Source: Trissonchulus latispiculum (Eukaryota; Nematoda; Enoplea; Enoplida; Ironidae). From it: a DNA stretch of 64,000 bases. A program made the position numbers and the translations under genes. The notes beneath the pieces are model-generated. The model was not told the DNA's origin. It saw nothing but the letters and a program-made list of their open reading frames with translations, and searched no databases. This document shows, one piece after another, positions 1,440 through 39,067 of the stretch (position 1 is its first letter; each line of letters begins with the position of its first letter). The stretch is taken from positions 1-64,000 of the forward strand of contig JASAND010005518.1 of NCBI GenBank assembly GCA_030248195.1, given 5' to 3'.

Positions 1440-1720
<281 letters not shown>

Positions 1721-14200: not shown

Positions 14201-15323
14201 TATTGTCGTGTTAAAATGAAAAATTACCTCCCTACATCTCCTGCCCCGTCATGCCCTCCTTGCTCATCGCTGGACTGCTCACATCTCTCTTCATTGGATT
14301 CTTCCACGTCACCATGTTCATCGTTGCTGTAATAAAATTTAAACCTTACAGATTTCCGCTTAGTTGGGCCCCCCCGCCCACATAGAAAAGTAGGAGGACG
14401 GGCTGCAAAAGTGGGCGGTTGCAGTAAACACTCTCAACCAGCTTGTTAATTGTGCCTACACAAACGGAATAAATACACAAATAGAGCTAAGCATAAACCC
14501 ACACTAGAAGGGACAGAGACGCGGGGGGGGGGCTGGCGTCCATTTTAGTGCCCCCGCCATCGTCCCCGCGCCACCGTGTAGTTCCCCCCCTAAATGTCTG
14601 GTTCACATCAGACTAGGGAGTATTACAAGTATTATGATAACTACCTCGGCGCTGTTCCCGTTGCCACTCGCTAATCTTTCCGTCTGTCTGTCGTCTCAGG
14701 AAAATATTGTGTAGTGCGTTGAACATTGTTAAGTATATACAGGTGGTCTTGTCCACTGTCAGGAAGGAAAAGTGAATGGAGATGTCGGTGCACAGTGGAC
14801 AGATAATGCTTATATGAGAATCAATATTTTTCGCGGCAAGCGAAACAGTAACTCGTTAATTGCCATAACTGTTAATAGAAGCCAAAAAAGGGGGGGGGGC
14901 AGGCGTACAGGGGGGATAAAAAACCGGTTTCCACTTTTCTCTTTCTATTGCTTAAGCGCTTTCATCTATGCCATATACACACATTGTGTACAATAAAACC
15001 ATGGGGGACAGCTGCTACTAATCTGCATAATTTCTCTTCTTTCCCCCCCCCCCCTCTTTCCTGTCTTTATTTCTTTAACCGTCATTTGAAATCTTGTTCA
15101 CTGTCTGCTCCTTGTCGTTTCGATCTAACACCAGGAAAAACTTTATCTCCGTTGTCACTAAAACGTAAATAAGTATTGTGTACCTGTTGGATTCGTCTGA
15201 GGATGTACAGTGATCACGGCGTACTCCAATCAAGGATTCTTCATCACTCTCTCCCTGTTGTCCTCTACCGTCACCGGAAAAATACGATTGACGCGAATCA
15301 CCAGAATCACCGGGCCGTGACAT
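5203..15323 (-). CDS. Gene L: about 21-exon gene for a long, low-complexity, charged protein
   Basis: Assigned exons, 5' to 3': 15323-15184 (ATG), 14326-14228, 12598-12500, 11874-11777, 11513-11460 (weak), 11262-11164, 10950-10567, 10360-10244, 9947-9777, 9668-9585, 9314-9180, 9034-8870, 8422-8297, 8106-8029, 7932-7642, 7182-7084, 6880-6779, 6533-6435, 6267-6037, 5663-5553, 5338-5203 (TGA). Together they encode about 970 residues. Every junction is phase 2. The exon at 11874 is 98 nt and regains frame and likely protein only if its G/C run lacks one base. The product is mostly disordered: acidic serine stretches (SSSSEGEK), G/Q/N-rich parts and basic nuclear-signal-like parts (KRKRSRG), with short ordered stretches near 9668-9180 (tryptophan/tyrosine-rich) and 8106-8029. 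No family was recognised. A scaffold, nuclear or structural role is only a guess. Exons may be spliced alternatively, since all are interchangeable. Confidence 0.75.
7156..7370 (-). repeat. Three tandem copies of an acceptor plus exon start
   Basis: An acceptor (ATATTACAG or AATATTACAG type) followed by a variant of GAGGCTAATCCAAGAATCAGTGCG occurs three times at about 75-80 bp spacing (near 7182, 7257 and 7331). Only the copy at 7182 continues into a full 99-nt exon of gene L. The other two lose frame soon after and look like partial exon duplications. Confidence 0.7.
12849..14227. other. Long intron of gene L with dense C/G runs
   Basis: Apart from the 343-bp tandem repeat, this stretch carries several C or G runs of 7-10 bases (near 13110-13150, 13915, 14070-14130). 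There is no convincing exon. Confidence 0.4.
13154..13880. repeat. Tandem duplication with 343-bp period inside an intron of gene L
   Basis: The block beginning CCACGTGTCCCGGCGGCTCG at 13154 recurs at 13497, almost identical over the whole unit. A partial third copy matches at about 13820-13880. It lies in the intron between exons 14326-14228 and 12598-12500. No coding function is seen. Confidence 0.9.
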
Positions 15324-18300
15324 ACTATACCAATAGAAAACTGTAACTGTTTATGTATTACTCAGGATTAGCGTTATGAAACTGTCTCGTTAGAACTATG
15401 CAACACAAGTGTTCGCTGACAAAAAGAAACCAATGTCAAAAAAAGACGACAAGTATTAGCAAAAAGAGGGAAGAATTTGAATTATGAGATGAGGAACGGG
15501 CGGGAACAATACTACAAAATAAAATGTGGTGTCGTTAACATTCATATGGTGTCAGGCTTATGCTATTATAAACGCGTTTTTCCACTTTCTGATTTTCCTT
15601 AATGCTTTTTGAAATTTAGGAGACACCTATTTATCTATTTATCAATCAGGAGGTTACATTGTTCTGTCCACTTTAAAGTTTAATTGACCAATTTAAAGTA
15701 AAAGTCCTTATAACGACCAAAACTATAAAAGTCAGCGTTTTCCACCTGAACAGAGCAAAAAAGGTATGAACAGATTTAGCGTAATAGCCTGCTATAGACA
15801 AGTGCAATAATATGCAAACAAAGAGATGGACGGGAAAGAGCAGGCTAAACTGTACACTATGAAACACAGAATAAGTCTACAATGTACTAATTTTTGTCGC
15901 CTCTGCATAATACACACAGAGAGGCAAACGCTCTAGTCCCCCTTATCAGTTCTCTGTATATGATAGTCTCTTTTTGGTTGCTCTGTTGCTCTCTATATCT
16001 CCCTGTCTTTACTCTTATATTAGTAGAGTAAGTGCATTTCTCCTTACACAACATACTTATACAGAAAGGCCTAGACAGACAAGGTAGAAGAGCGACGTTT
16101 TATGCAAATTATGCAAAAGGAAAAATGACCGGCAACAGGTCTTAACGAAGCAGAAGCTAAACAAAAGAAAACAAATTCACCTCAGTCCAAAGACAAGACA
16201 GCGTGGAGGTAGACCAAGTGACCAAAGACTGTTCATATATTTAAACAAATCCATAGTACGAATGCTCATCCTGGCTTGCAGCACGCCACAGCCCCTGCGG
16301 CTGCCAAAGTGTGTATCAGTAATGGGCATCTGTTAGTGTTTGGCTGTTTGTCACCTTCCCGTTCTGTAACCGTCCTTCTAAATGAATAGCGAAAAATAGA
16401 TTGTAGGATGTAATCGCCGAGCTGAACATTATCATGCACCAATCAGAGATGAATGTGGGCAACTATTTCCTCCCCCCCGCCGCCCCGGTGATCCTGTCGC
16501 AATATTAGGTTGGGCAAACGTTTTGCTTTCCTTTATTTAGTAGATTTGAAAAGTGAATATTACGAGTTCGTCTGAGAACATCCGATTGGTTTACACTATA
16601 TATTTTTGTGGTATGGCAGTTATTCATAGAATATGAAAAAAAGGGCGCATCACATTTAGTTCTCGTAGATATGCTGGTAGCCATAGCAATTGGAAGAAAT
16701 GCCAAGTAAAACTTAGAATTTGGAAAACTCGTTTTGCTGGGAATTTCCTCTGTTGCTGAGATTTGAATCCAAGAGTCTGACGTTGTCCGACCAAAAGTTA
16801 GCAGCAGCAAAAAGTCAGTTACAGTAGATGGAGCATGCAGAATTTCCTAGTTTAAAATGAAAATTTGAGACTGACAGGACCCATGCACTACTTTTAATTG
16901 TTTAGTTTATTCTGTTACAAATCTAGATTTAAGATTGATAGATTATTACAAATATTATGAGGAGACTACTACAGCGAGAAGTATTTAAAACAGTCCTGCA
17001 TTAAATTAAGAACACGCCTATTGCTTGTTTTTTGACTACGTTCTTAAAGTTTTTAGTTGCCAAAAATTGTTAAAACTTAGAAAAATAACACCAAAAAATC
17101 CTCCTAAAAAAAAATACCATTCCAGACGGTGGCGGTGATGCTCACCCGGTGACACGGGTGCCCGCGCCATATGCATGACCCGAACTCACCCGGTGCCCCG
17201 TTCCCCCCTCCCCACTTCTCGCTCTAATGCTATTCCTCGCCGTCATAACTCCGCCCTAACTTCTACCGTTACTTTGTTTGTTTAGGGAAGTTTCTTGTTG
17301 TCTACTCAAATGAATTGGAGTGTTATTAGTACATGTGCTACAGTATTGACAAATATTTTTTGTGCGTGTTCCAGTTTTAGGGTTAGTGCACAATTAACAC
17401 ATTTAGGCTTATTATCACTAAACGACTAAGCAGAGTGACTTTTCACAAAAAATTAACACTTTAATGAAGAAGGCGTTTAAATAGCTGAAATGTCGCAAAA
17501 ACTTTGACACCAAAGACAGACCCCACAACGTTAACTATTTCTTCTTATTGATGCACCAGGATCGCCAGAAAAAGGGCCCCCCCGGAGGAGTCTGGAAACC
17601 TGAAGCGGAATAACGTCGCTCTCACTCTGCCTTTTGATTATCATCTTAGTTGAATGTGGTTGTGCTCAGTGGGGTCCGTTCAGTGGTAGGTGTTTTCACT
17701 GTTACTCTCTCTCAATTATATGAAACTTATTTTATAAAGTATACTACCGTAAACACAATATTTGGCTGGTTGCAAAGTCCCTCTCAGATACAACAATGAT
17801 GCTCCGCTCAACTTATGCCTTTTAGTTCTATTCGATAAATGGTCCAACTATTCTCCTATTAACCTTACTCTGTTTATTCTCTGAAAATTACTTAATAAGT
17901 ACAGAAATAAAAGCAAATGTCGTCATTTTGATATCTATCTCATTATAATCAGTAGCCTATATATGACATTTAGACTTTCAGCCGTTTCTCACGACAGACC
18001 GCAATAAACCTGTTATTTATGTTGTAAGAGTAGACTGTTTGGAAAATGAATCGTCTACTGTATCTTCTCATTAAAGCTAATAAAACTTAATAGCTAAGTT
18101 AACTAGGGCGGAGCGGGGCCAATGCATACTGTTCGCCGAAGCCAGACGTCAAAACATTTCAACTTAATACCTCGTTCATGTTTGTCTGGTCCCCTAAATT
18201 CCAAACTATTTCAGACTTCTACAAAATAATACACACGACAAAACACAACCTGGGAAGGAAATATTAACAAAACAACAGTACGACGCCCTGGAGATTGTTT

Positions 18301-18450
18301 AAACACAACAGCTAGGAGTAAACAGTTCACCCCTAACCAAACAAAAGCCTTTAATACGAAAAAAAAACACCACAACTAGATAAACGTGACATAGAAAACA
18401 AAAAAAAAGGTGTGTGTCAAACTCTACGATTGGGTAGCAAGTCTACGTTG
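15324..18450. other. Intergenic region between gene L and the helicase-like gene
   Basis: About 3.1 kb without a supported gene. A 101-codon minus-strand frame at 16810-16505 exists but has no splice context, conserved motif or biased composition to back it. A GC-rich island at about 17125-17215 with short CACCCGGTG-type repeats stands out from the AT-rich surroundings and could be the end of a small element. The promoter of gene L should lie just upstream of 15323, but I cannot define it. Confidence 0.3.
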
Positions 18451-21400
18451 TCAGTCCTTGTGTTTAACAAACGTTGCGTCAGCAGTACTGGTTCCTGGTT
18501 CTTCCCCCCCGTGAACTGCTGAGCGTGTACGCTTCGACGGAGGGCCGTCTTTCCACAGAAGCCCAGGGAGGCCTGTCGCGAAGATGGGGCGAACCCCCCT
18601 ACGTTCTGCTTCCTGGCCAGTCCGCACAGAAGGGGGAGGGGTTTCGACCAGGCTCCTCATAGTTATAGGCCGACTGCGTATACCATCCTGAGCAGTGTTG
18701 TCAGGCTCCTCACCGGGATTGCTCGCACGACTGCCAGCGTCACCCAAAGCAGGGGAGCATGACGGGCGGTTCCGCACAGTTGGATCGCATTCGTTTCGGG
18801 CTCCCCATAGCCCGCCCTGGTCCAGACTGTTAACTACGCCGTCACCATTTTCATCTTCGGTTTGTGTGTCCATTTGTCTGGACGGGGTGCGCTCCAACCA
18901 CGGCGGGACATAAGGAGAGTCGTACAACCCGCCCCCGTCTCTTCGCTCCGGCTGCTCTTCATCACTTTGAGTTGGAGGCTGTTCGCCCTCCCCCTCTTCC
19001 CTTGTCTCCTGTGCGTTCGTCTCTGTGGACTCTCCATCATAACCGTCGGCGCCCCGCCCACGATCACCAGTCGCCACAAATTCGTCCTCCGCCGCCCCCC
19101 CCGTTCCTCTGCTGCCCACCGTTCCTGTACTGGTACGCGACCGCTGACGCCCCGTTTCTGTCTTTCGCGTGGATACAGAAGACGCAGAGTCAGTCCCGTT
19201 GTCTGTTTCTCCGCTTTCGCTTGCACTAGATCTTTCGGTGATATCCAGCACTAGACTGTATTCAGAATCAGCAATCGGGTCCACTGCTGTAACGCGGAGA
19301 TCCTGTAACCGCAGAATCGCAACTAGGTAAGGGCTCCCCAGCTGCTTCGCTGTGACGCCAGGGATATTAACAGCGCTTCCATATATAGGCTCAATGGCGG
19401 CTATGTTGTCGCGTCTGTACGAGACCCCCCCCCGGGTCACTGCGAATTTTCGTGTAAATATCAGCAGGCACTGACAGCAGGCGTAGAATCTCTTTGTCCA
19501 CCTCGTCGGCTGGTTTTTTCCAGAAGATTTCGTCGCCTCGTTTGTTCAGGAAAGGAACCAAGAACGGGCAGATTCGCAAAATATTGTTGATCTGGAACAC
19601 AAAATAATTATACTGAGTAGTTGAACAAGCACCCTTTTTTTAAATTTTGGGTAGTGTAAAATGCATATTCAGAGTAAAAAGTGAATATTTCGCTTGGGAA
19701 CAGGGGAAAGGGGGAGAATCGTGAAAATAAACAAAGTCATCGTGGAAAAGCCCACACTGATGGAACCATATCCTCAAAGTAGCAGGACAATTCTGTGTGT
19801 TTCAGCATGTTGAGCGTCGACCCCTCCACCAATTTGTTGTTTCATCACGACAAATTATTTTGGTAAAGGTGTCAGAACTCCATTTTTGCTTCCAGGAAAA
19901 AAAAAAAGGTATCACCAGCTAACGTAACTGTATAACTTTCTAAAAAACTTTTGTATACAAGGCGTATGGCAAAACAGTAGTTTCAAAAGAATTCTAATTC
20001 ACGTTTTGGCCAAATCTGTCAATTTAAAGGAAGAAACGTGGAGTATAGTGAGACGAAGACCTGACGTCACATCTTCGAACAATAATTGTACGTTTCAGTC
20101 TTCAGTAACGAACGGTATTTATTTGTAAAAGTTGATTATTTTGTACATTCTTATAATCTCAGAAAATGGAGAAAAACTTGCAGAAAATGAGTCTTCCAAC
20201 CGACTACCCTTTATAGCACAAAAAAATAAATACATATGAGAGGAGGAATAAATATAGAAACATAGGCGGAGGGGGAAAGTAAACAAAAACGTCATCTAAC
20301 AGAATACAAAAACGCACCCCAGACTTTATCCTACGCCTTGTGCCTGAATGAAAACGTTTGCGTAGTTTAGACGGCACAATGTATTGTCCCGGGTACTTTG
20401 CGGCCTTCTGGTGAACTTCTTGCACAATCGAGCAGGACATCGTGTCGTCGACTATTGTAGGAGCCTGAGGTGGCGGATGAGCTGATGCAGCTAGCTACAG
20501 AAAAAAATGGATATCGTAAGACAGGATGGACAGTCAAAACATGCGGGGGGGGGGGGGGTTCATACCACCCCTCTACTTGCTAAGTCCACTCAAACACGTA
20601 AATAGTCAGGATTCTCATCCCTTTCCCCTCCCCGCCCTTTTTCCTAGTTTGCTTACCTTTCGAATAGCTTGTTTCCACATATCAGATTGCAGAACGATCC
20701 CAAGAGCATTTTTCATATCATCCTTTGTGATAATGCAATCTAGGGGCGGAATGGCTCCTCCCTCCTCCATGAATCGAAGCATGTAGTTCAAGTTATGAAA
20801 GGCAACTGCAATCCGTAATGCAAGTGCAGGCAGTTTGGGGTTTACAGAAAACAAGCGGCCCTGTTCCAAATCAAGGTTCATTAGTGGGACATTGGCATCC
20901 CAGAACTCACGCAGCACTGTCTCTGCTTCTGGACTGCACGTGTACAGGAGCGGGGACGCTCTGTAAAACAAAAAAGACACTAAATAAGACAGGCTTTAAT
21001 TGACTATGTACTTGCTCAACTAAGTGTAATCAAGCGAATGATAAAAGAAAACCTAACATTGGCACCTCCACAGACTGCATAATAATTACAAACAAGGGTT
21101 GCATATAGAATGGCATTAGAGACTAGTCATTACCGTTGGCGACAGAACTCCCACGCACGATTAAAAGCCTGTGATAATGTGTGGCGGCCAAAGCGCTTCT
21201 CCAGGGCGACTCCAGCTTCACGCGATTTGGTACTTGTGTAGAAACGAACTGTAGAAGGGAACATAACAACCCTTGAAAAAAAACATTGAAGTATAATGCG
21301 CTAAACGACCACTAAACGTAACACTGCTAAGATACTCTTATGAAACATGAAGAACAAGAAAAGAAATATTTCACAATGGGACCAGACGAAACGCGGAGGG

Positions 21401-22880
21401 GTAGGAGACACAAACTAGCTTACGTAATTATTTTGTAATTATCAACTTTGATGTTATTATCATATTTCACTTAGTTGCTTCTTTCTCACCTATCCCACAG
21501 CCCATCACTGTTCATTGCTGTATTGTAAAATTTCAGCATGGCTTTATGCCCCATTGCTGCCAGCAGGTGGATAGGCGCATCAACAGGCATTTGGAAATCG
21601 GAGCACTTGAAAGCAGAACTACTGGCAAAACCAGACCAACGAGAGTTAAGCCAGCATAAGTTCTCACTTGCTGTCCCCGTACTGCTTTTTCCCATACTGT
21701 TGAGTGTTGTCTGGAACTCGTCGCTTATTAGAACGATGGTGGGATCATGACCAAGCTCTATTAACTAAAACAAGGGCCATAAAAAAGGTATTTCCCGACG
21801 TACTTTGTTTGGTGCATCTACATCTAATCAATTACGCTTTATTAAAATCACACCCCCCGCCAATGATAGACTACGCGGACGGGGGGGGGCCGGGGGCGGC
21901 TGTGCCCCCCTAGGCCGACTGAAAAATACGCCGAAAATCCGCACAATGGCATTTTTGACAGAAATCAGTTGTTAATTCTTTGCGCTCATTTCAAAAGTTA
22001 TACCCCAGCAAACGAGGCAACTAAACACTAGTTACTGTCTCCCTTTGTCTTTCTCAGTACTAACAGAGGGCGTTACACATAACCTCTTTTTCAGCGTATG
22101 GGTTAAAAGCGCATATTATCAGTTCTCCTTCGTTTGTATCTTTGTACATACTAACGATTACCATAGAAAAAAAAGGCTCACTGCGATCTTCACTGCGATC
22201 TTTCTCTGCGACTAACCACTACTACGCAAAAGATAAAACACTGTAAAGGCGGAAAGGGAGAAAAATACAAACAAGGATATACCTCATTCTGATGGCGTTC
22301 AATGCCCTGTGTTGTTGTAGCAGCAAAGCATTTTTGGTTATACAGACGTTCACCCAGGGCCCCGCAGATGGGGTCCTTGAAAAATGTACCCATCGCCGGT
22401 GTTTTCCCTGTCCCCGGCCGCCCTGTCAGAACAATCATACTGGCTACAGATTCTCGCACTGTCTCCTGTGTACCGAATGCCTTTCGTTCGATTTCGGCAT
22501 CTATAATACATAATTGTATTTTAGTGCTAAATAACTAAATAACTATACGAACGCGAGCAATTGTCAATGCACAAAATAAAACAATACTGCCCAGAACCTC
22601 TAACCAAAAACACGACACGAAATATTAGTTCCAGTATGGTGTGTAGGAGCATACCCTGTGCAATAAAAAGCCCCAACTGCAACAGGATGCCGAGAATATG
22701 AGACGAGGCTAAACTGTAGCAGACAGCACACGAGGCCACATAAGCAATTACACGTTCTGCACGGAGTGTGTGTTGAAGAGCATACGGCGTTTGTCTCAGC
22801 TTTGAACAGATTAGCTCGATGTCTTCTAGATCCAAAGATTCGATCGGAGGAGCTTGTTGTCTAACAGAGCCAGTATCCAT
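18451..22880 (-). CDS. P-loop helicase-like ATPase (DUF3987-like) with long disordered tail
   Basis: Seven exons: 22880-22655 (ATG), 22500-22283, 21764-21490, 21271-21134, 20960-20657, 20494-20318, 19591-18451. Junction phases agree throughout (1, 0, 2, 2, 0, 0). Residues about 102-109 form a Walker A motif (GRPGTGKT), and about 158-164 form a Walker B (IVLISDE). GLWDR at about 236-240 sits where such ATPases carry an arginine finger. The following exons have the helical character of the C-terminal part of DUF3987 helicase-like proteins, which accompany primases in mobile elements and viruses. The final exon has a short ordered part, then a one-base slip in a nine-G run near 19429-19437, then about 300 disordered residues. 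The role inferred is DNA unwinding in replication. The family name is from memory of motif layout and is tentative; the P-loop ATPase call is firm. Confidence 0.75.
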
Positions 22881-23917
22881 CGTGATTTTTTGTTCCCCCC
22901 CTCTATTTACTCATGAGGGGGACTGCTGAAATGTAACGACAACAGTTGAGCTACAGGACATATTGTTCATTTCCTCGTCATCCTCCCCTAGTATTTTTGT
23001 TGTTAAAAGAGTGTATCGCCTCCTTTACAAGAACCATAGTTTAACGTAGGATGAAGGCACCCCTGCACATGGGATGTAAAAGTAAAGTTGAAAAATCAGA
23101 GGTCAAAACTTTTATTGTTGGCATCTGGGATGGTATCCCATGGGGGGATTAGTGGGATTTTGTGGGATCATTTTCCCAAACAATTTCTTCAAACACAGTT
23201 TACAAATGTTGAAAAAGTGCAACATTTTCGTAAAATTGGCATAAAAATGTCTGGTCAATTTCATGATTGGCCTTCTGTTGACTAACAGACCAGCAAAGCA
23301 AAGCAGGGAGCTCTTTAAGGTGCTGCTATCGCTTTATGTAAATGTAACCTTACAGGCTCCAATTTTTATGATGAAAGTTGATGAAACTTTCCTAATACGA
23401 TGCTCTTAAATACATCTGATTCGCTGATATAATTGGAAAAATGTCACCGAAATGAACGTTTTTGCTTATCCCACCTTTGAGCTAGCAGTTAAGGGGAGTC
23501 TATCATGAAAAATTTTCAGATCACGGATTTGGTTCATTTTCGCACCTAAACTCCCCCCATATGTCTGCATATCAAGTCCAAAATTTGAGTTCTTTCGTTC
23601 AGTTCTTCGCAATTTCGAGGCTTCATTTGTGTGCAATTTGAATATGAGTTACAAGAAACATTGGTAATTGTTTGAAACAATTTAATACTTACTTTCTAAT
23701 CAATTTATACAATTTAATGGCACCTTTTATCAATGCCCTATTAGCTGGAATCGGGTGGTTTAAGCTAGAGACTTGGCCGACAAACGTATTTGGCAAAACT
23801 GCTATTATTTTATTTAAAACATCGATATCACAAAAACTACCCCATGGATTCGCGTGACCTTTGGCAGGATTAAAATTCACAGTATTTCTGAGGGGCTTTT
23901 CTTTACTTTGAACTTCA
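22881..23917. other. Intergenic, upstream of the helicase-like gene
   Basis: No gene is supported. The region 23120-23180 contains several GGGAT-type words similar to those in the tandem duplication just downstream, so it may be an older relic of that repeat. Confidence 0.3.
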
Positions 23918-25683
23918 CCAGCTGCGAGAATACTCTATGCGAAGTTGAAAAATTTCGTGTCATCGCACATTTAACGGATTTCCTGGAGCATTAAGACCTG
24001 ATGAGCAAAATCCATAAAATTTCCATCAATTTTGCGACGATTCTATATTTTTGCGAAATCGATAATCAAAGTTCGAGGGGCTATACATATTTAGTATGTG
24101 AAAAAATTTTGCTGGTTTTTTGCAAATTTTGTTTTTTTTTGATTTACTGATTATAAGCTTTAAAACGGTGTGTCAAATTTTTCCAACTCCCAATACTGCG
24201 AAAGTTTATTGCGCTTTCAAATTCCCCTCACAAAACGATTACCACCTCAAGACCTTATGCCAATAATAAAATTTCAATGTAACAGCGATTGAAAGTTCAA
24301 ATACTGCAAGTGGGATTATATGGGATTAGCAAAAGCAAGTTCCGGGGGAAGGGGGATGGGATGGGACGGTGAATTTGAGAATCTAGTGGGATGGGATGGG
24401 ATGGGATTAGAGAATTCGTCCCATTTGCCAACTCTGCCCGGAACCCGGGTCTAAATTTTTGGCCCCACGCCCATGCCACATGACTAGACTCAACCATTGC
24501 AGAAATGCCCCCCGCCCCCTTCCTGGATTGTCTCCATTATTGTGAGCTATTCTTTCTATCTCATTAAATGTGGATCAAAGCCTTCATATCATGGCAAAGA
24601 ATCAATCTTGGTCCTATTCTATACGTGTTCTTATAGGTAATCGTTGAGTCAAATCGTCGGTACAAACAAATAATCGCACTGTTGTCAAAATCTATTCTCT
24701 AGCAAATTAATAGCTTCTAGCAAAACAAAGTGCTACAGCCAACTGGAAAAACTCCCTTTTTGAACACAATACTGAGTACAAGTGTGGCACATTACGATCA
24801 CCAGCTGCGAGAATACTCTATGCGAAGTTGAAAAATTTCGTGTCATCGCACATTTAACGGATTTCCTGGAGCATTAAGACCTGATGAGCAAAATCCATAA
24901 AATTTCCATCAATTTTGCCACGATTCTATATTTTTGCGAAATCGATAATCAAAGTTCGAGGGGCTATACATATTTAGTATGTGAAAAAATTTTGCTGGTT
25001 TTTTGCAAATTTTGTTTTTTTTGGATTTACTGATTATAAGCTTTAAAACGGTGTGTCAAATTTTTCCAACTCCCAATACTGCGAAAGTTTATTGCGCTTT
25101 CAAATTCCCCTCACAAAACGATTACCACCTCAAGACCTTATGCCAATAATAAAATTTCAATGTTACAGCGATTGTAAGGTCAAATACTGCAAGTGGGATT
25201 ATATGGGATTAGCAAAAGCAAGTTCGGGGGCAAGGGGGATGGGATGGGACGGTGAATTTGAAAATCTAGTGGGATGGGATGGGATGGGATTAGAGAATTC
25301 GTCCCATTTGCCAACTCTGCCCGGAACCCGGGTCTAAATTTTTGGCCCCACGCCCATGCCACATGACTAGACTCAACCATTGCAGAAATGCCCCCCGCCC
25401 CCTTCCTGGATTGTCTCCATTATTGTGACCTATTCTTTCTATCTCATTAAATGTGGATCAAAGTCTTCATATCATGGCAAAGAATCAATCTTGGTCCTAT
25501 TCTATACGTGTTCTTATAGGTAATCGTTGAGTCAAATCGTCGGTACAAACAAATAATCGCACTGTTGTCAAAATCTATTCTCTAGCAAATTAATAGCTTC
25601 TAGCAAAACAAAGTGCTACAGCCAATTGGAAAAACTCCCTTTTTGAACACAATACTGAGTACAAGTGTGGCACATTTCGATTG
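23918..25683. repeat. Tandem duplication of an 883-bp non-coding unit
   Basis: Copy 1 spans about 23918-24800 and copy 2 about 24801-25683; GCTGCGAGAATACTCTATGC recurs at 23921 and 24804. The copies differ by only scattered substitutions and a few indels, so the duplication is recent. Each unit holds an internal GGGAT/ATGGG run (near 24340-24420 and 25230-25300). Reading frames inside are short and mirrored in both copies, so I regard the unit as non-coding. Confidence 0.93.
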
Positions 25684-26200
25684 TTATTTAAACATTCTTA
25701 TATAATTTAATCATTAATTAGTATAGGGTGTGGCCAAAGAGTAAACAGTATTAAAATCAAATATTTTAAACTATTGCTGCGACAAAGATGCAAAAGGCAA
25801 TTACGTTGAACAGGCACAGGTTTTGCCTTTCTTTGAAATTTGCTCTTTTCTTTGCGTGACGTTTTCATCAGTAAATAAAGCTCTTTAGAATATGGAACGT
25901 GTACTAAGTCAGTCCAGCATTCGTGCATACACAGAATACGCACATGTAAATCTATATAATCAACAGTCTAACGGAATCTCATACCAGGAAAACTCTACTT
26001 TATTCCGAAAATCTCAATATTCGCTGAGTGCAGGTTGCCAATAGAACCATAAAAACGAAAAATACTTTTTCTGTAGCAATTTAAACTTGTTGCGAGAACA
26101 CACGCCAGGGGGGAGGAAAGGTTGCAGTGACATCTTCTTTCGGCGGCAGTAGGCTTTACACTAGAGGAGAAAAGGGGACGCCAAAGCATTTCTGTATATT
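25684..26200. other. Non-coding spacer
   Basis: AT-rich sequence with short frames only. I see nothing supportable. Confidence 0.3.
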
Positions 26201-26205
26201 TTTCA

Positions 26206-26341
26206 CAAACTCCTGGAGATACATCAGGAGACCCCCCCCACGGACGTGGCTCTCTGTGGGCGTCACGATGACCAGAGGGCCTGCGACACATGTGGCTGGC
26301 ATTCCTCTATCTGGCGTTTCGGCAGAAGACAGTGCACAAAG
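26206..26341 (+). pseudogene. Ectopic relic of a gene X B-type exon, inverted relative to gene X
   Basis: On the plus strand this segment follows the 138-nt B exons of gene X from end to end, including the CTGSAGATACATCAGGAG-type start and the CACGATGACCAGAGGGC core, which translates to a DDQRA motif. Both splice sites are damaged: the expected TTTCAG acceptor reads TTTCAC, and the donor GTAACC reads CTAACC. A C8 run also shifts the frame. It is about 17 kb from the gene X copies and on the opposite strand, so it is probably a dead, dispersed exon copy. Confidence 0.65.
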
Positions 26342-28127
26342 CTAACCTTCTTTCTCAGCTAAGAAAATGAGAGGGGGAGCTAAACTGAAAATGAACATAC
26401 ATGGTGAATTTGAGTTTTACAAATAAATATTTAAGACACTGAAAAACATTCCCTCAAATCAAAAATTCCGGGGGACCCCCAGGGGGGGGGGCAGACCCAA
26501 AAAGGGGGAGGGGCATAGACTTAGGCCCCCCCCCGTAACCCTGCCTACTCCTTCCTTCTCTGCTTTTTATCTTCCCCTAAACTGTCATCGTTACCGCAGT
26601 TGTTCAGTCTATGCATTACAACAGATTCGTGTGGAAAATGGAGACAAGAGTACCTAAACTATATCTGCCCTACGACTTAAACTAACAATGTGCTTAGCAA
26701 AACCCGTCTGAAATAACAGCGACAAACCTAGCATACTGAGACAAGGAAAACTGGCAAAAAGATTTAATACTGCAAAAACAAACAAACAAAAAACAAAGCA
26801 GATACAATATAACGTACAAAAGACATGTACTTTCGACACATAACCAAAGTATCTGAAGGAGGGTTGTCACAGGCTCAACGAAGAGCACATATATACTTCA
26901 CAGTCGAAAACAGGAAGCACGTAAGCTATTTCGTTGCAAAATAGACGGAACCACACAAGTATAAACAACATGTGACACCAAAAAAACCACATACTCTTCA
27001 TAATCACTATATAGCCAATAAAGAATTACAAAAAAAAGAAAAGCAACGCACACAAACAGTCAGAAGACGAGAGGCCGCAAACACGACAATAAGACACACA
27101 ACAACGAAAACCTCGATGGAAAAGGGGGGCAGGGGGAACACAGGAAACAACAACAAAACATTAGAAACGTTAGCTAACAGAACAGGCGGCAAACAAAAGC
27201 AGATACAAAACATAGAGCAGATTAACAAACGAAAAAAAAAAAGACAAACCAATCTGTAGCGACAATAAACAAAGTCAGGATAGGCAAAACACACACTCAA
27301 AAAAAGGACGGCAGCAGCAGAAATACAGACAAAACGGCATTAATCAACAAAAAAGTTGCCTAACACGTTATGGGCAAACTAAGCCGCCCCTATATCTACG
27401 TCTGGAGTAGATGCGAACGCGGCCCGTAAGGGGAGCTAATGCCCCCCCCAAACTGTTGATACACACAGAAAAAGCCAACAAACGAATACAAATTGAACCA
27501 ACCAGAACGCGCGTAAACAATTAAAATTGGGGGGGGGGGGAAGTGACAACAAAAACACAAAAAAGTCAAGTAGGGGGGGGGAGCCCGAGCTAATACAAAA
27601 TTCAACAAAGGCAAAATAGAAAGGGCAAATCTAGGCTAACTAGACAGACAAACTACACAAAACATGAAAAAAAGGGGGCCAAAAGAAAAGAAAACACAGT
27701 GAAAACAACAATATCATCAATACACATGAACGACAACGAAGCCCCGACAACGCAAACGGTCGTGGGGGGCCAGTTACACAGACAAACAATAAGAAACGAT
27801 AACAATTACTCTGACATGCTATATTTTAGTTTTGGCCCTGTTATTTCTACAACAGACAACGCACAAAACACAAATCGTTTCCGATATATACTTGTAACAG
27901 TTTCTAAAGAGCAAACAAGGGGGAAAACAGGAAAAATAAGGGATAACAATTGAAAACAGGCAGGGGGCACAAAAACAGCTACAACGACAGGAACAGTTTA
28001 CGTAACGAACATCGAAACAAAAAGACAAAACTGCAATAAGTCCGAAATGTAAGACACACACAAACAGCTAACGGACAAGATGATAACAGAATCAAGCGAG
28101 GAGGAGGGGGGGGGGAGGCACCAAAAA
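26342..28127. other. Strand-asymmetric, T-poor non-coding region
   Basis: From about 26930 to 28130 the plus strand is strikingly rich in A and C/G and poor in T, with many ACAAAC-like words. Frames found there have biased, repetitive composition (K/T/N/Q) and lack motifs or splice context. It lies directly downstream of the OTU-like/CXC gene and could be its 3' UTR or a degenerate transcribed region. C/G runs of 7-10 bases are frequent. Confidence 0.4.
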
Positions 28128-29423
28128 TTAACAGAAAAATTGGAACACTGGGCTAGTATACTCAGCGGCGCCCAGCTGGGCACACCTCTCAATGACGCCT
28201 CTCAAGGCACGCTGAATGTCATCTTCTGAACGGTAGCGCGCGCAGACGCCACCGGACGTTAGATAGATGCGTTTAGAATTGTAAGCGGCAGTAGTAGCAG
28301 TGTAATCCAGTTTCTTACACCCCCCCTGTCTCTGGCGGAGGATAGCGCCAAGGAGAATATATTCTAAGAATGTCCACTTAACAGATTTCAGTGGGGTGGG
28401 GGGCTCTGAGTTCAAAGAAGCAAGCCTTGAAGGCACTGGAGTCATCAGCAGACCTTCCATACGCATTGTTGACAGAACTGACGGAGCCTTGCTCGAAGAA
28501 CGGCGCCCTTTCGGATTTTGACAACCCCAGCAGCCGCATCGCACGCAGGCTCGACCGGCATCCAGACACGGGCAGGTGCTTTTCCTTGCCGATGCGAACC
28601 CTTGTCTTCTGCAACAGTTTGCCCCGTACCTTTTGCAACGACAAGGCGCAGATCCAGGGGCAGGTGGACGTGTGGGAGGGAGACTGCGAACGAAGTTGGA
28701 AAAGAGGTGCCGATGAAGATCGCTTGGAAGACTCAACCAAAGCCAAAGGAAACTGTCTCTCTCATGCCGCCAGCCTAGAAAAAGACATCCCTTATCTCTA
28801 CAAAGGTAACCAAGAGTGGCCGGCGATATAATGAAATAAGGCACCAGAGGCACATCAGTTACAACAACTACAGGAACCTCAAAGAAATCTGCAAGGATCT
28901 GCGCGCATCCGTAATGATTCGGCCATTCGACCAGGTCCCTGTCATGGAATCTGCTCACGTCCTGTTGTGACCACTTGTAACCGACGTACCTGTTCCAATT
29001 CTCATTCTCCCATAAAAACGCACGTATATGGATTGTTAAACTTTTAATGGTGAGCACCCGCGGGATCCTCTTGGACAGACAAGAAGAGTCACGAAGAGAC
29101 TGCTGGAACACTGGGGAAGACAGAGCCGCTGAAAAGGAGGTGAAAATGTGTCCCCACTGTAACGTCGCTCCTTCCGGGGCTGCCTCTGCCACCTCTGTCC
29201 AGAAGGCTTCATGGGCCACATTGAGATGTTGACGCGTAGGTTTCTGCAAATCCAAGCAGGCAGCGACATCCTCCATTGATGCGAGGAGAGACAGGGCGGA
29301 CGATCTTTCTCTTTCAGTTGGAGATACAAGGAATAGCTTGTTCCAGTACAACCGACGAAGGACCGACGCCTCCGGGATCCTTTGATCTACGTCAGAATTT
29401 AAGGCTTCAAGTGTCCGTGTCAT
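28128..29423 (-). CDS. OTU-like and CXC-domain protein next to the transposase
   Basis: An uninterrupted frame of 431 codons starts at an ATG 42 bp downstream of the transposase stop. Residues about 125-230 resemble the later half of an OTU-type cysteine peptidase fold: a basic helix, a W-containing loop (EWPNHYGC), ILADFFEVPVVVV, and a possible catalytic histidine near 220. I do not see the usual D-G-x-x-C catalytic block, so peptidase activity is doubtful. Residues 261-304 are a cysteine-rich CXC motif of the MSL2/Tesmin type (CRCK, then CPCLDAGRAC, CGCWGCQNPKG), a DNA-binding zinc module. Such OTU and CXC modules are often carried by transposon proteins. The tight spacing suggests co-expression with the transposase, by readthrough or as a shared transcript. 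The CXC call is strong; the OTU call is tentative. Confidence 0.7.
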   Translation of the reverse strand: MTRTLEALNSDVDQRIPEASVLRRLYWNKLFLVSPTERERSSALSLLASMEDVAACLDLQKPTRQHLNVAHEAFWTEVAEAAPEGATLQWGHIFTSFSAALSSPVFQQSLRDSSCLSKRIPRVLTIKSLTIHIRAFLWENENWNRYVGYKWSQQDVSRFHDRDLVEWPNHYGCAQILADFFEVPVVVVTDVPLVPYFIISPATLGYLCRDKGCLFLGWRHERDSFLWLWLSLPSDLHRHLFSNFVRSLPPTRPPAPGSAPCRCKRYGANCCRRQGFASARKSTCPCLDAGRACVRCGCWGCQNPKGRRSSSKAPSVLSTMRMEGLLMTPVPSRLASLNSEPPTPLKSVKWTFLEYILLGAILRQRQGGCKKLDYTATTAAYNSKRIYLTSGGVCARYRSEDDIQRALRGVIERCAQLGAAEYTSPVFQFFC

Positions 29424-29465
29424 GATTAGACGATCATTTGGAGAGAAATCCTCCCCACTGCAGAG

Positions 29466-31221
29466 CTAATGTTTCCCCTTATTCCATCTGTCCCTGAATA
29501 TCGCCAGAACTGCAGTGAGCAAATCTATTCCCACGTGGGACACGGAGCAGATGGGGGCCGTTCGGATATGACGATGAAACCCTTCGTTACGGTTGGTCCC
29601 AACACCGACTGGTATGTTACTGAAATACGAATGAAAGCTGTACAACCAAACCTAATGAAATGTAAACGTTAAAGCGTAAGAAAAAAGACCTGTTGCAATA
29701 CTTTGTTACGGGGACTGCATTAAGTTAAACTAGCAATGAGAACGGTCAGACAAGAGAAAAAAACGCGGCACTAATTGATTGATGTGGAAACGAACATTAT
29801 TGATAGTGTACGAGGAACATGTGTAAAAACAAACGGGGCCAGGTTGTTAATATGTTCGAAAGGAGAGGGGGGGGAGACTATTCCAGACTTTAACTGCTAA
29901 TTTCGCTACATGAATAGTAACGCTAATAGTAATTCATGAAAAATGTTGTAAACAGTTTATTAAAAACAATAGAAGTTAAAACAACGAAAGTCAGAGGAGG
30001 GGCTGACCTTAAACATCCCTTTCTGATATGAATGGCTATCTTGTCGCAAATAGAGTCGAACTTCTCATTCACAACACGCTCCGGTGGACCGTTTCCATTG
30101 GACCGATAAGTTTTCTTGGACCACTCTGCTCGAAAAGCTTCGAAGTTTTCCATCATATCTTCTTTGTTAGGAGTGGGCGCTCGTCTACGACGTCCCCAAT
30201 CAAAAGGCTGACGGAAAACTTTTCTTGACGCCAACACAAACTCCCCATAAAGAGGATGTGTTTTTGCAATGCCCTTCCCCAAACGGGTCTGTATGTGGAA
30301 CAAGTCTTGGCACAACTTCACCTGGGGGCCCAAGAGTTCCTGCACTTTGGCAGCTACCAGACAGCAGCTGTCGGTGACAAAGTACATTACTCGTCGCCCG
30401 ATATTTTTCAATTCCTCCGCTGCAGCTATTATGCAATCACTAATTTCATCATACTTTGTTGATTTGCACAGTTGTAACGCCAAAACTATACCAAAGCCGT
30501 CTAAAACGGTTGCTAAAGCATAGTATGTCCGGTTCCATAATCCATTTTCTGTGAGCCCCAGAGACCGGACGAACCTAAACGTGTGGTCAACTGACACAAA
30601 GTAGACATCACCGGTAAAACGAAAACAGTACCGGCACTCCTTGAATTCGGCCCACAAATTGTAATTTAACCTGAAATCATGTAGCATCCACTGTCTGAGG
30701 TAAGTTCTGGTCGGTTTCCTTGATCCCTTGTAACCGTTCTTCCAGTATTTCCGTCCTAACGCATTTACTATTTCGTTGATATTATTCTTTGTTCCGAACT
30801 CTGATCTGAGATGATTTATTAAACGGCATGTCAGACCAGATCGATGCAAAGGGACAATTGTTATTTCTCTGAATTTCGACGCCTGCAAATTGATTTCGAC
30901 GTCGCATGACCCATAAACGTGGGATTTTTCCCCTGGCGCTTTGCATACGTATTTCCTGGGCGCAACGAACAGTGGGGACGTGTCATCCCAGAACACCCTC
31001 AAGGGCCTGTCTTTTCTGTCCCCCCATCTTCCGCGAATTAGAGGATAGTCATGAATAGGACATTTCAAAGCACCAGAAAAACCAGACATAGGGTCCCACA
31101 CCATACAACGCACCGGTTTGTCCCCCAAAACGTGTGTTACCACCTCGCCATGCGCCTGCTGATGAAGAGCACTCCTTGACAGCAAGCTCCAGTCTATCGC
31201 TGTTCCCTTGTCCACTGGCAT
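29466..31221 (-). CDS. DDE-type transposase, two exons
   Basis: Exon 1 is 31221-30008 and exon 2 is 29619-29466. The junction joins in phase 2 and restores GCLSNIPVGVGTNRNE across it, giving about 455 residues. The N-terminus has a possible zinc-binding part (CPIH at 54-57, further C at 93 and 106). The RNase H-like core shows D212 in SVDHTFRF, D284 in FVTDSCC, a following DLFHI, and the conserved NIPVGVGTNRNE segment, whose E is the likely third acidic residue. This matches a large, poorly named family of animal transposase-like proteins that I recognise by these motifs but do not assign to a superfamily. The frame runs past the donor in exon 1 only into a short unrelated tail, which supports splicing. 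All key residues are present, so the gene may be functional. No terminal inverted repeats were identified. Confidence 0.8.
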
Positions 31222-31921
31222 AGTGGCTGTTTCAGAGGCGCGTAGCGTTTGGACGCTGTTTCCCCCCCCGCGCTGGTTTCAGCTGACAATCTATTCCGTC
31301 AAATTAGGTCGTCTAAAACAAAATGTTGCATTGTCACTTAGTTTGGCATACTTTATATTGTGAAAACAAGGTACCAAAATGTTGTCACTCGTTCGGGAAG
31401 GTGGTTTTGGTTTCCCTCCCCCAGGTTCCGCAGTAATATTCGCAGTGACACATTCAAATGACAATAAACGAACGGCAAAGAAAACCAAAACACAATAAAA
31501 TAGGTGGAGAAAAAAACAAAATATTGAATTTTTTTTCTATGCCGCATAGGGGCCAAAAAAGAGAGGGGGGGCAATAAGTGTTTTCTTTTATCCGTCTAAT
31601 CTTCGATAAATGAGCAACATGAAAAATTGTTTCCTGTCAGGTTTTTTACGACATGACGAAAACATACAGAGAGAGAAAAACCAGCACACTAAGGGGAATG
31701 TGACTAGTGAAAGGAAACGAAGAAAGGACGAAAGGGCAGCTAGAAATGAAATAGAAAGCCATACCATTCTCCCCCCTGCATTTTGTCGGCGTACCTTTAC
31801 GCGTGTATAGTGTGGGCTACAGAACAAGACAAACTTTGTTAACAGAAAAAAAATGAAAAGGTCTATATATAAATACAATCATTGATAAACAAAGAAAAAA
31901 ACAAAAGGAAATACGTGAGCC
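31222..31921. other. Spacer between primase and transposase genes
   Basis: AT-rich, with C/G runs near 31262 and 31565. No gene is supported. It should contain the transposase promoter and the primase 3' end. Confidence 0.35.
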
Positions 31922-33124
31922 CTATGGGACACATTTGTGCCCTCCAATCACTTTGAACCACATGCCCGGCCCCACACGCTGACCCAACGAACGAGCCTGA
32001 TCAGTCTTGCACGATTGACCGTGGCAGCGCCATTGATAAAGGAATTTTTCACGCTTTATCAACAGATAAGAGTGATTAGACTTGTGATCTCTGCCAAGAA
32101 AGGGGCAGTAACGGTGATTACGAATTGACACGAAGAGGAGGCCCGCAGTAACCTTGATTCCCCCTATATCATAGCCAGGAAACAGTACCGGGGCATCCCT
32201 TTGTAGGCGGTCCATCTCCGCTGGCATCAACTCGACGCCAGGGTCGGAACGTACAGACGGGGGGGTCCACTGACGTGAACAATCAGGCCCACGTCGTGGG
32301 ACGGGTGCTCGTCGCCGCCCCCCCTCTCGGACTGCCATGGAAGGGGCCGTATGGTTGAAGTATTTCTGTACGCGCCTATCTAACAGGCCCCCGTTCGAAA
32401 AGTCTACGGGACATTCATAGACACCCACCAAACTCTTAATAAAATCAACGGGAAATTGCCCACTTTTCCCCGTTTGAATTTCCAGTGGACGGGCTTGTCC
32501 AATTTTGGTCGACAGCACAATTCGGAAGTTCTGATTAACAGAGTACACGCTAGGGTCCCAGATAGTAAAACTAGAGTCCACCTTCTGCTGAAGCATCCCC
32601 ATGAAGCGGCCAACTGCCCTAGAGTTCTTGAAAATCGTGGACCCACAGTCTACAGCGTGGTAGCTAAGCTTTGCCCCCTTGTGAGCACTCAAGATAACCA
32701 AATCAATGTCGGAATTTTCCCCCCCCAGAACTCTGCTCACGGCGACAGGAATATGCATAAACAGAGCCCTGGCAGCCCTGTGGAAAGATTCCGACTCCTC
32801 AGCCGACGATACTGTCTTGTCCAAATCAAGGTATAATTTGCAGGGGCGGGAGTATGGTAGCACCTCATAAAAACAGCGTAAGTGCGGAGGGATACACTGG
32901 TACAAGTGGACAAAATGGTTTACATCAGCTAACACGTAGAAGCGAGCACCGTGTATTCCGTATTCGTACGCGAACACAGCTAGAGGGCAGCGGTGGGGGC
33001 TACGTGAAAAGGCATCCAATGTCAAATTCAGTTTTTTGAATAGTTTAGTTTTTCGTTCAGGCGGACAGTCACAGGTGTAACGCACCTCAAAATCTGTATC
33101 CAACAATAATTGCCACACATCCAT
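31922..33124 (-). CDS. PrimPol-type primase-polymerase with C-terminal zinc finger
   Basis: A single exon of 400 codons with an ATG at 33124. It carries the archaeo-eukaryotic primase signature in order: motif I YLDLDK at 98-103 with D100 and D102, motif II SYH at 154-156, and motif III beginning at D190 with VYSVNQNFR at 193-201. It ends with a UL52-type zinc finger, C340-x6-H347-x19-C367-x4-C372 (YCPFLGRDHKSN, WRCHGQSC). This layout is that of eukaryotic PrimPol and of the primases of herpes-like and other large DNA viruses. The protein is shorter than cellular PrimPol (about 550 residues) but keeps both modules. The predicted role is primer synthesis in DNA replication. It lies upstream of the transposase and on the same strand as the helicase-like gene, so a shared replication module is likely. 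All catalytic residues are present. Confidence 0.9.
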   Translation of the reverse strand: MDVWQLLLDTDFEVRYTCDCPPERKTKLFKKLNLTLDAFSRSPHRCPLAVFAYEYGIHGARFYVLADVNHFVHLYQCIPPHLRCFYEVLPYSRPCKLYLDLDKTVSSAEESESFHRAARALFMHIPVAVSRVLGGENSDIDLVILSAHKGAKLSYHAVDCGSTIFKNSRAVGRFMGMLQQKVDSSFTIWDPSVYSVNQNFRIVLSTKIGQARPLEIQTGKSGQFPVDFIKSLVGVYECPVDFSNGGLLDRRVQKYFNHTAPSMAVREGGRRRAPVPRRGPDCSRQWTPPSVRSDPGVELMPAEMDRLQRDAPVLFPGYDIGGIKVTAGLLFVSIRNHRYCPFLGRDHKSNHSYLLIKREKFLYQWRCHGQSCKTDQARSLGQRVGPGMWFKVIGGHKCVP

Positions 33125-35064
33125 GGTAATTCAGTTCCGTTGTCGTAATAGTACGCCCCGTAAGGCGGCCTGGCTACCCTCCGCCTTTTGTGGAACTCCA
33201 CGCATCAACTAAAAATAAAAATGCTGAAAGAGCTCGACGATATAAAAATACAGGAAACAACTTAATGTGAAAACTAGGTGGGGATTGTATAGGCCCTCTC
33301 AGGCTATTCTTCCTGTTGGCTCAACAATCTCCTTTAGTTCCAACACTAACACGGAGTATATGCGGACCGGGGGCGGAACGTAGCTATCAGCAGAGAACTT
33401 GGCAGTGGTTGTTAGTAGCGCGGGGCATTATTGTTCACATATTCTAACACTCCGGTAAGGGAGGAGACTGCCCCCTTTTGGTTACACAATGCAGAACATG
33501 ATTAAAAAAATAAGTTTATCCGTTAAGCAAAAAGGAAGAGCCACACTAACTTTCAAACAAAAATTAAGGTCGGGCAAAAAGACAGAGCCTTGGCATATTC
33601 TCCCTAATGTAGTAAACAAGCGGCAAAACAGGGCGTCACCGATACTTCAAGAGTGCCAGTAAGGTAGATCGCGAAGAAAAAAAAAGACGTAGGCAGGAGG
33701 GGGATGAAGTACAGCTAAACCTCCCCCCTTCCCCCTCACAGGATTTTCAGAGGAAAAATACAGGGGCGCCTTGTTTTTGTCAGTTTTGTATAGTAGCGCA
33801 GCGCTCTTTTTCACATTTTCAGTAGAAACATTGCACCGGTTGGGGGCGGGGGGAAAATCCACTGCTTATATTATGCGCGTTGGTCATGTTACTGACATGT
33901 GGTTGCGGGGCGGATTCTCGGCTGAATTCCCTCTTATATTCTGTAGACCGAGCCTCGAAGCCACGGACATCGTTAATTTGAAAAAGAAAGAATAAAGTAG
34001 CAACAATGTTTCCAAAACAATTGAAATTACTTTCAACACAAAGTAGGAAAATAGAAAAAAAAACCGACTTCATAAGAGATATTTGCACAGCAAGTTATGT
34101 AACCTTATTTATTATTAAATCCCTCTTCGTTTTAGAGAAATAAGCTGAAATGTCTGCGTAGGGTATCTGTTCCCTACCTTCTTCAAAATTTTCATGCGAA
34201 TGGATTATTTGATTTCTGCAAAAAAAGGCAAGATTTGAACGCCGAAACGAAAAAAAGCCAAATCACACGCAACACAAAATATACAAAAGCTGCCGCCAAA
34301 CGACAATCTCCATGTTTAAAGACGACTCGATTCAATGCAAAAAAAGGCTGGAAAAGGATACGCTAACAATCACCCCCCCCCCTTTTGGGGACCGGTAACG
34401 CTGTGGGAATGTACTTCGCCCCCCCCCGCCTCACCAAACCAAAAGAGGGGGGGGGGCCCCCTGACGTGAATGCTTCAACATTATCAGTCTCGTCGGGATA
34501 AAACAGACACGGGGGGGGGGCACACTGCTAATAGTGCTTCTTCAGAGCGTTCTTCTTTGCTGACGGTAAAACTATCCTGTGCCCCCCCCCCCATGACCAC
34601 TGGATGGACACGATACCAGAGTGTGTAAATATGTGTTGTGTCATGTCTATTGCTTCTTGTACTGTGACAAGTATTCATCACAGTCGGTATGAGATCAACC
34701 CACTAGAGAAAATGTTCATCTAATGCTGTTTTATATCATTCTGCTACTATGAAACAACGCGGGGGGGAGACAAGCAGCAACAACAGGAACAGGGCCAAAG
34801 TGCTTTCCGCGCGTTTCCACCCCCCCCCCCCCGCTACAGTTCTGTTAACGTAGAAAGTCAACCTAGAGAAAGCCAGTTCAACGTTCTAATCAATAGCACA
34901 CTATACACCGGAAATATACCTTTATTGGAAAACCAGACAAGATAATAAACAACGATGACATATAAAACAAGACAACATGTCACTGAATTTACCGTCAACA
35001 CGTTAGACAGTGTGTAAAGTGAAAACAGAGAATAGCCAAAAAAACTAAAAGGTATCAGTTAGTT
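33125..35064. other. Intergenic, rich in C/G runs
   Basis: Almost 2 kb with no supported gene. C or G runs of 7-14 bases cluster between 34370 and 34830. Short frames lack splice context. Confidence 0.35.
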
Positions 35065-36127
35065 TTAAGGAGTTTTAACGGCCTTATAAAGTTCACAAGC
35101 ACGGACATTAAACACGCCCGCGGCAGCCTCCGGGGGTCTGGTTGTCGTAATAACTTCATGAATTTCGTCCAAACTTATCCAGGCGTGCACCAGGGGCTGC
35201 TTAGGAACCAGGGTCACGATAGGGGGCGAAGGCGGAGAACAGTACCCCGTGATTTGCTCCAGTTCCATACACCAAACTCCACCTGCTACTGACGAATTCT
35301 GCGGGGGGATATAGGCTACGTTGACACAACGCCCCAGGGGGAGACCTGGAAAAATTAATGGTTAACTTATTACAATTACTATACAAAAACTAACGCATCA
35401 AAAAGCAGGCTAAAAACAGACATTTCCTAAAAGCATCGTATGCCTTACATATAAGAAAAAAGACAAAGATGACGAGCAACAAAGCGCAGGCCGGTTCCGC
35501 ACCTTAATGACAAGTGGATGCCCAAACCCTGTTTTCCGTTGAAGTTAGTTGAAACAAACAAAGAAGGAGCACCGTTTTGGTTGTACAGATGATGCTACTT
35601 GCTTTTATTTTCTTTCTATTGCAAAAAATTTTACCGTCAGTTTCTGAAGGAGTGCTGTAGCAAACGATCCCACTCTTTCCAGAATGATAATTCTTCAGTG
35701 TAGACATCTCTTCCCCGCCCACTAACTCTTCACTCTTTAACACCCCATCGTCTGTTTTACTGTCTGCAACAGTTAAAAGAAAAGTCAGTGAACCTTCTTT
35801 GATTTTTCAGTTGACAATAAAAAGAGATGGCTTAAGACTGCCTACATCATGAATCCTCATAGTGGAACTGAACAACATTAGCTTTGCGTCTACTGTAATG
35901 GAACGTGTAACTACCGGCGCTACATCTACTGTGAATTTGAACAGTGTAATCTCTAATTTACCAATTATTATCGTTGACGATACAGGAATTTCTTTAGAGA
36001 AGTATAGCCACTTATCCGCAACGATAACAGGGATAGAGCGGGCTGTTTGGCCATGTGCATACATACATAATGGCAAAGAGGGAGGGGGGCCACAAGAACT
36101 GGGAGTACAAGGGGAGCTCAACAGCAT
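35065..36127 (-). CDS. Gene Z: three-exon relative of genes X and Y
   Basis: Exons: 36127-35962 (ATG, donor GTAAAT), 35763-35635, 35345-35065 (TAA). Both junctions are phase 1, giving about 191 residues. The last exon aligns by eye with the last exons of Y and X: a GxxV start, a conserved W(I/L)xLDxI-type segment (HAWISLDEIHEV here, LHWLALDDIKYG in Y) and a C-terminal LY-containing helix. The central exon is acidic (KSEELVGGEE). The first exon is hydrophobic with a CMYAHG segment. The family is unknown; see the shared-domain finding. The first exon is the weakest part, because an opposing plus-strand frame (35862-36266) overlaps it. Confidence 0.5.
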
Positions 36128-36331
36128 AGCCCCTTCGGTGTGCACAGCGGAAAAAATGAAAAAATTGGACAATAGCTCAGAACTCAACGAAGATCTATCG
36201 CGAGGAGCGCCACAGTTTTCCTGCAGAAACAGTGCAACACAGGGAGTGTACGTAATACAGCTGTAATACAAAAAAACGAGTAAACAGATTACCAGTGTAT
36301 TCTCTAATGAAGACGACATCGTAATGTCCAC

Positions 36332-38444: not shown

Positions 38445-38709
38445 TACTTAAACAAATAGGCATCAATAAGAATAGTACTAAAAAACACACAAAGAGAATA
38501 GAAATAGAAATAATCCACATTTCACCGCATCTTATACTGGAGGGGGGGGGAAATCCCCACTCAGCTGATACCTAGAAGAATAGACCTCAAAAAATCGACT
38601 GTTCCGTTACTTAATTTTACAGACAGACCAAAATATTAAAAAGGCTAATCAGAAACAAACAAAATAACATCAATAGAAAAAGGAGGGGGGGCCGGGAACT
38701 GTACTACCT

Positions 38710-38904: not shown

Positions 38905-39067
38905 ATGAAACTGAGCATTTGTACCGTGTGGGCGGCATGTTTAGGCTGGTCTTTTTTCCGCCTGTCGTCTCAGCGGATGCATCCCCTAAAGCATACACCT
39001 GTGCACTAAAAACTTTCTTTGAGTAGTATAAGAATTTGTTCGTTTCCCCTTTGTCCTCCTGGTCGGA

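Follow-up and report, generated by a model that had tools for sequence, protein, structure and literature searches.

The window analysed here, comprising the first 64,000 positions of contig C3762 (77,638 bases) of the nematode Trissonchulus latispiculum, carries a copy of a giant DNA transposon with 21-base-pair (bp) inverted repeats and 8-bp target duplications. A complete copy of 50.7 kilobases (kb) was found on contig C12998. Members of this family are probably cut and pasted by a predicted DDE transposase, and they probably copy themselves by means of a PrimPol-type primase-polymerase and a predicted helicase of the DUF3987 family. The chances appear evenly balanced that they represent a self-replicating animal transposon of a new class, about 50 kb in size, in which a transposase of no known family is combined with its own PrimPol and DUF3987 helicase. 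An earlier note on this DNA had placed a candidate giant transposon or virus-like element at 18451-33124; the element proved to be larger, extending from 1404 with homology to 52922.

Ends, target duplications and empty sites

The searched genome (733.8 megabases) was queried with four pieces, namely the transposase, PrimPol, an ATPase exon and the C-terminal part of the transposase. The match tables behind all contig counts given below are lower bounds. Wnt genes gave 77 matches in this genome and none in 14 control genomes, which marks the host as an animal, as Wnt is not known outside animals. Contigs C12998 and C14874 share similar sequence as far as C12998:137249 and C14874:15204, respectively, and are unrelated beyond these positions. 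The sequence CCTGGCCGTCTCAGGTGACAC begins at C12998:137249, its inverted partner CCTAACTGTCTCAGGTGACAC lies at C12998:187925-187945 and GAATAACT flanks the pair on both sides as an 8-bp target duplication. All core genes of this copy are enclosed by one 21-bp inverted-repeat pair, i.e. by common ends and not by separate ones. The end pattern of the C12998 type, with up to two mismatches allowed, occurred 58 times compared with 18 times for the reversed control, and facing pairs with perfect 8-bp duplications were also located on C14458 (19.5 kb), C15502 (20.5 kb) and C19410 (31.7 kb).

The end pattern of the window type was found 77 times (control, 24). Facing pairs were present on C20286 (27.8 kb, identical to the window in all 21 bases) and on C14458 (29.1 kb, one base different), with CCCTAGCGTTTCATGTGGCAC as the partner end in both cases and with perfect 8-bp duplications, GCTTTTAG on C20286 and ATTTAGTG at the window-type element of C14458. 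The target duplication was perfect in all six paired ends. A related 5' end was located near 31.83 kb on C3539, on which the core genes are present. The five shorter elements (19.5-31.7 kb) lie on C14458, C15502, C19410 and C20286, four contigs on which the four genome searches gave no core-gene match; we therefore infer that they are large non-autonomous deletion derivatives which were moved in trans. A third end type, CCTGACTGTCTCAGGTGACAC, was seen on nine contigs (for example C2018 and C7319), with no link here to a gene-bearing element.

For the comparison of occupied and empty sites that the earlier note had proposed, the flanks of the C12998 copy were joined with a single copy of the duplication and searched against the genome; 40 of 314 candidates were scored, two of which were the C12998 flanks themselves. 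The other 38 were loci of a dispersed repeat that matched the joined flanks continuously over the junction at 71-78%. In two of these empty loci, aligned base by base, the eight target columns were present once and ungapped. The empty sites are paralogous, not allelic. The element is a giant transposon, since one end pair encloses all of the genes on C12998 and is accompanied by a target duplication and by related empty sites.

Linkage and selection of the core genes

The genome searches returned at least 97 transposase, 106 PrimPol, 138 ATPase-exon and 76 C-terminal matches, spread over at least 122 contigs. All four pieces were found together on 34 contigs, and pairs of pieces co-occurred on 37-49 contigs against 0.14-0.26 expected by chance. 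Order and orientation were read from one place per gene in the match tables, second, inverted copies being left out. The orientation was identical for all pieces in each of the 34 contigs and the order PrimPol, transposase, C-terminal part, ATPase was kept in 30 of them. In the other four (C10408, C2299, C5838 and C8830) the order was transposase, C-terminal part, PrimPol, ATPase, and PrimPol has therefore been relocated within the element; approximately 20 kb separates it there from the C-terminal part. Separate elements lying side by side are ruled out by the co-occurrence, co-orientation and common order. Co-occurrence at other loci was a check set beforehand, and the single-element, giant-transposon reading has come through the refutation tests of the earlier note: the genes recur together and share their ends.

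The ratio of nonsynonymous to synonymous substitution rates (dN/dS) was obtained from eight usable pairs. Nine pairs with saturated dS, one ATPase pair that was out of frame and one C-terminal pair (dS 0.003, ratio 0.62) were excluded. PrimPol gave values of 0.17, 0.21 and 0.33, transposase exon 1 gave 0.06, 0.09 and 0.10, the C-terminal part 0.11 and one ATPase exon (92 codons) 0.05. Where measurable, these ratios indicate purifying selection on all three core proteins.

Organization of the element in the window

Homology between the window and C4411 breaks at 1403/1404 and reaches 52922, with none before 1403. Conserved coding segments were found between 5.5 and 51.2 kb of the window, mostly on the minus strand. 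The earlier note was right in placing all of its genes on one strand, which is the minus strand in the window. For the copy in the window, only the 3' end was located; its 5' end was looked for on contig C3762 and not found, nor was the second half of its candidate target duplication. Open reading frames (ORFs) in the flank before 1404 gave no match in a Pfam search. The features are as follows.

1-1403: flanking DNA outside the element
1396..1403, no strand assigned: one half of a candidate 8-bp target duplication, CTGGGGGA
1404..52922, genes on minus strand: element body, with the 3' end at 1404, delimited by homology to C4411
1404..1424, plus strand: 3' terminal inverted repeat, GGGGCGCGTTTCATGAGGCAC, identical over its 21 bases to the element end on C20286
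5552..11015, minus strand: downstream conserved coding segments (5552-5731, 6021-6311, 7482-8009, 8817-9149, 9179-9403, 9584-9703, 9776-9988 and 10566-11015); segments scanned gave no Pfam match
18454..22880, minus strand: DUF3987-type ATPase gene, predicted helicase, several exons (approximately 22277-22501, 21489-21764, 21127-21282, 20657-20995 and 19427-19591, with a tail at 18454-19431)
28128..29619, minus strand: transposase exon 2, GTNRNE block followed by the C-terminal part; splice site predicted by eye
28512..28646, minus strand: CXC-like cysteine-rich module; weak MSL2-CXC match below the cut-off
30008..31221, minus strand: transposase exon 1 with D212, D284 and DxxH at residues 306-309; splice site predicted by eye
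31922..33124, minus strand: PrimPol-type primase-polymerase, single exon, 400 residues, with zinc finger
35068..35361, minus strand: upstream gene U3, last exon, no Pfam match
37588..38085, minus strand: upstream gene U2, last exon, on 10 contigs
43255..43710, minus strand: upstream gene U1, last exon, a distant paralog of U2
51588..52922, no strand assigned: repeat units near the 5' side, with homologs arranged as a long array in C4411
54782..64000, plus strand: second, inverted arm, the mirror of 38908-48155

Matches to U2 and its paralog U1 were found at 25 places on 10 contigs, none of which has fewer than three of the four core pieces. For several of the conserved proteins of U1-U3 and the downstream segments, the Pfam scan gave no known relative. 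Positions 23915-25681, between the transposase and ATPase genes, contain a direct duplication of approximately 884 bases (98.6%).

Core proteins

The PrimPol motifs and UL52-type zinc finger named in the earlier note are intact: DxD, SxH and the third Asp, as well as the finger C-x6-H-x19-C-x4-C, are invariant in six of six aligned copies. The Pfam UL52 match of the finger was weak (E value 0.12) and a search of the protein collection with PrimPol gave no match. Searched against the PDB as a single sequence, the ORF matched a 'DNA-directed primase/polymerase protein' with an E value of 9.7e-9 (chains 5l2x_A and 7jk1_A, which we take to be human PrimPol). A six-member profile matched the same protein name at 1.1e-12 and added a second block around VYSVNQNFRI. 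The spacing of the zinc finger is presumably identical to that of human PrimPol. On these motifs and matches, the element primase is assigned as a PrimPol-type primase-polymerase of the archaeo-eukaryotic primase (AEP) superfamily.

The ATPase carries the Walker A motif GRPGTGKT. Its joined exons match Pfam DUF3987 (E value 2.3e-11, 43.9 bits compared with a cut-off of 27), single exons remaining below that cut-off, and NCBIfam and PHROGs gave weak matches only (best E value 0.0035, for the Walker A exon). The protein is accordingly classed by profile as a DUF3987 member; the ATPase of the earlier note stands, its helicase role as a prediction. In PMC5862659, DUF3987 ATPases are described as predicted helicases fused to the primases of mobile elements. 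The reading frame of the window copy shifts at a G run near 19430, the length of which varies among copies, and this frame change may be an assembly error.

In the transposase, D212-HTF, D284-xCC and D306-xxH are kept in all eight aligned copies (27-98% identical to that of the window) and GTNRNE is present in exon 2 of all seven contigs inspected. It is predicted to be of the DDE type, as had been proposed, with the two aspartates and, placed by eye, the E of GTNRNE as candidate catalytic residues. Nothing convincing was found in Pfam, the PDB or the protein collection, whether with a single sequence or with the alignment. Membership of Zisupton/KDZ, hAT or MULE was rejected, as none of the eight copies matched the Pfam profiles of these groups (E values up to 2).

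The earlier note had counted an OTU/CXC protein as a fourth gene. On C4411, C14743, C3539 and C7490, the GTNRNE exon reads without interruption into the ORF reported under that name, which is therefore the C-terminal part of the transposase and not a gene of its own; four independent genes were rejected in favour of three core genes. An in-frame stop near 29467 splits the two parts in the window and is present in both inverted-repeat arms. A candidate CXC-like module shows an MSL2-CXC match in five of five C-terminal copies, which is consistent but weak (best E value 0.02; 14.4 bits for the window copy compared with a cut-off of 26.7). The OTU assignment was dropped, the OTU profile having been found neither in the five copies with Pfam nor in the PDB profile search.

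Comparison with known systems

Among eukaryotic transposons, self-replication is known chiefly from the Mavericks, which use a protein-primed polymerase. Like the Maverick/Polinton elements, the present one is a giant integrated DNA element with replication and integration enzymes. Theirs are a protein-primed PolB and a retroviral-type integrase, according to PMC6431247, whereas here a PrimPol, a DUF3987 ATPase and a transposase outside Pfam are found. A Pfam scan of 33 window segments, covering part of the element, gave no match to PolB or to a retroviral-type integrase. Teratorn, also a giant transposon of animals, likewise encodes a primase and a helicase, but it measures approximately 180 kb, its transposase is of the piggyBac type and its capsid, polymerase and terminase genes are those of a herpesvirus (PMC10175614); none of these was matched in the scanned segments. 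Membership of either group was rejected in the absence of hallmark-gene matches in these segments.

Mobile elements of bacteria and archaea likewise couple an AEP primase to a DUF3987 ATPase, a predicted helicase (PMC5862659). Often these form one fused protein, with integration by a tyrosine or serine recombinase; the element described here, which resides in an animal, differs in having separate intron-bearing genes and a DDE-type transposase. Target duplications of 8 bp also occur in Zisupton and hAT elements, as stated in PMC12730594, and MULE duplications measure 8-11 bp (PMC6446971).

Among the matches listed from a search of titles and the starts of abstracts in open-access PMC, which leaves subscription literature and Repbase outside its scope, no eukaryotic DDE transposon was described as carrying both PrimPol and DUF3987. 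Self-replicating giant transposons are a known kind; within the reach of these searches, both this transposase and this predicted replication module are additions to it. A 2019 review (PMC6431247) suggested that new giant transposons could arise from the combination of a primase and a suitable integrase, and the present element, if correctly interpreted, would be a natural form of what was imagined there. A primase, a predicted helicase and a transposase are joined at many loci of one animal genome, with real ends and precise insertions, and the idea thereby becomes directly testable. The element also supplies a transposase that is covered by no Pfam or PDB family in these searches.

Proposed mechanism and alternatives

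In the proposed mechanism, the transposase would cut at the inverted repeats and excise the element, its CXC-like tail being predicted to aid DNA binding, and would then join it to the target with an 8-bp stagger, so that copies re-insert. The DUF3987 ATPase would unwind the element DNA, possibly at the array of repeats next to the 5' end, which is a possible replication origin. PrimPol would prime and partly extend, either with the assistance of host polymerases or by itself serving as the polymerase. Self-replication is suggested by the gene content: the element likely copies its own DNA because genes of primase-polymerase and helicase type sit beside the predicted transposase.

Several observations weigh against this interpretation. 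The window copy is broken by the transposase stop and the ATPase frame change. The E of GTNRNE, taken as the third acidic residue of the triad, is a visual assignment, and a single-sequence AlphaFold prediction of transposase exon 1 gave no usable fold (mean predicted local distance difference test score 33). At least one of the four pieces is missing from 88 of the 122 contigs (24 with transposase only, 22 with PrimPol only, 11 with ATPase only, seven with the C-terminal part only and 24 with other mixtures); these may reflect fragmentary or derived copies, truncation at contig ends, or host PrimPol and other relatives. Finally, the Pfam scan of the 33 segments revealed no replicative DNA polymerase that would account for extension beyond priming.

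This last result also favours a rather unlikely alternative, in which the giant transposon moves by cut and paste, while its PrimPol and ATPase serve only to repair or complete ends and gaps after excision and insertion, with copy number growing through host replication and gap repair. The ends and duplications require a transposase only, and host PrimPol functions in repriming and damage tolerance. Against it, a separate helicase-type ATPase has been kept beside the primase in copies down to approximately 30% identity, and the pairing of primase and helicase is that of replication modules in bacterial elements (PMC5862659, as above). An endogenous virus with capsid genes diverged past recognition would fit the size and gene set, which overlap those of integrated viruses, and the conserved proteins of U1-U3 and the downstream segments that lack known relatives. 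We consider it highly improbable, given that no relatives were found among the viral contigs searched, that no capsid, terminase or DNA polymerase was matched in the 33 segments and that paired ends with duplications also bound the five shorter elements without core genes, as in transposons. The 'virus-like' label of the earlier note likewise gained no support from the scanned segments.

A self-replicating transposon would be compatible with a further proposal concerning inverted copies, which are centred near the 5' repeat array on C3762, C4411, C18085 and C14874, with an inverted U1/U2 pair on C8207. These head-to-head copies could be real dimers arising from element replication and joined at the array. 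The arms in C3762, C18085 and C4411 are far more alike than separate loci (the innermost differs by up to approximately 11%), with between-arm substitutions ranging from 0.7% (C3762) to 11% (innermost C18085) and increasing toward the centre in both. Real dimers are nevertheless improbable: the second arm ends at the contig end in five of five cases, a search of the centres of C3762 and C14874 revealed no 5' inverted repeat, and monomers with both ends occur. Moreover, Wnt exons, which belong to host genes, form two head-to-head sets at C13444:45880-52138, a hint that inverted joins are made by the assembly. We lean towards an artefact rather than an inverted dimer. The palindrome centre in the window (53191-54792) is a purine-only tract of approximately 1.6 kb containing a long ORF without a Pfam match. 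Over approximately 4 kb that include the PrimPol region of the right arm of C3762, the two arms differ by 46 substitutions, all within one 1-kb bin in that region, and are otherwise identical; this bin resembles a conversion or haplotype patch.

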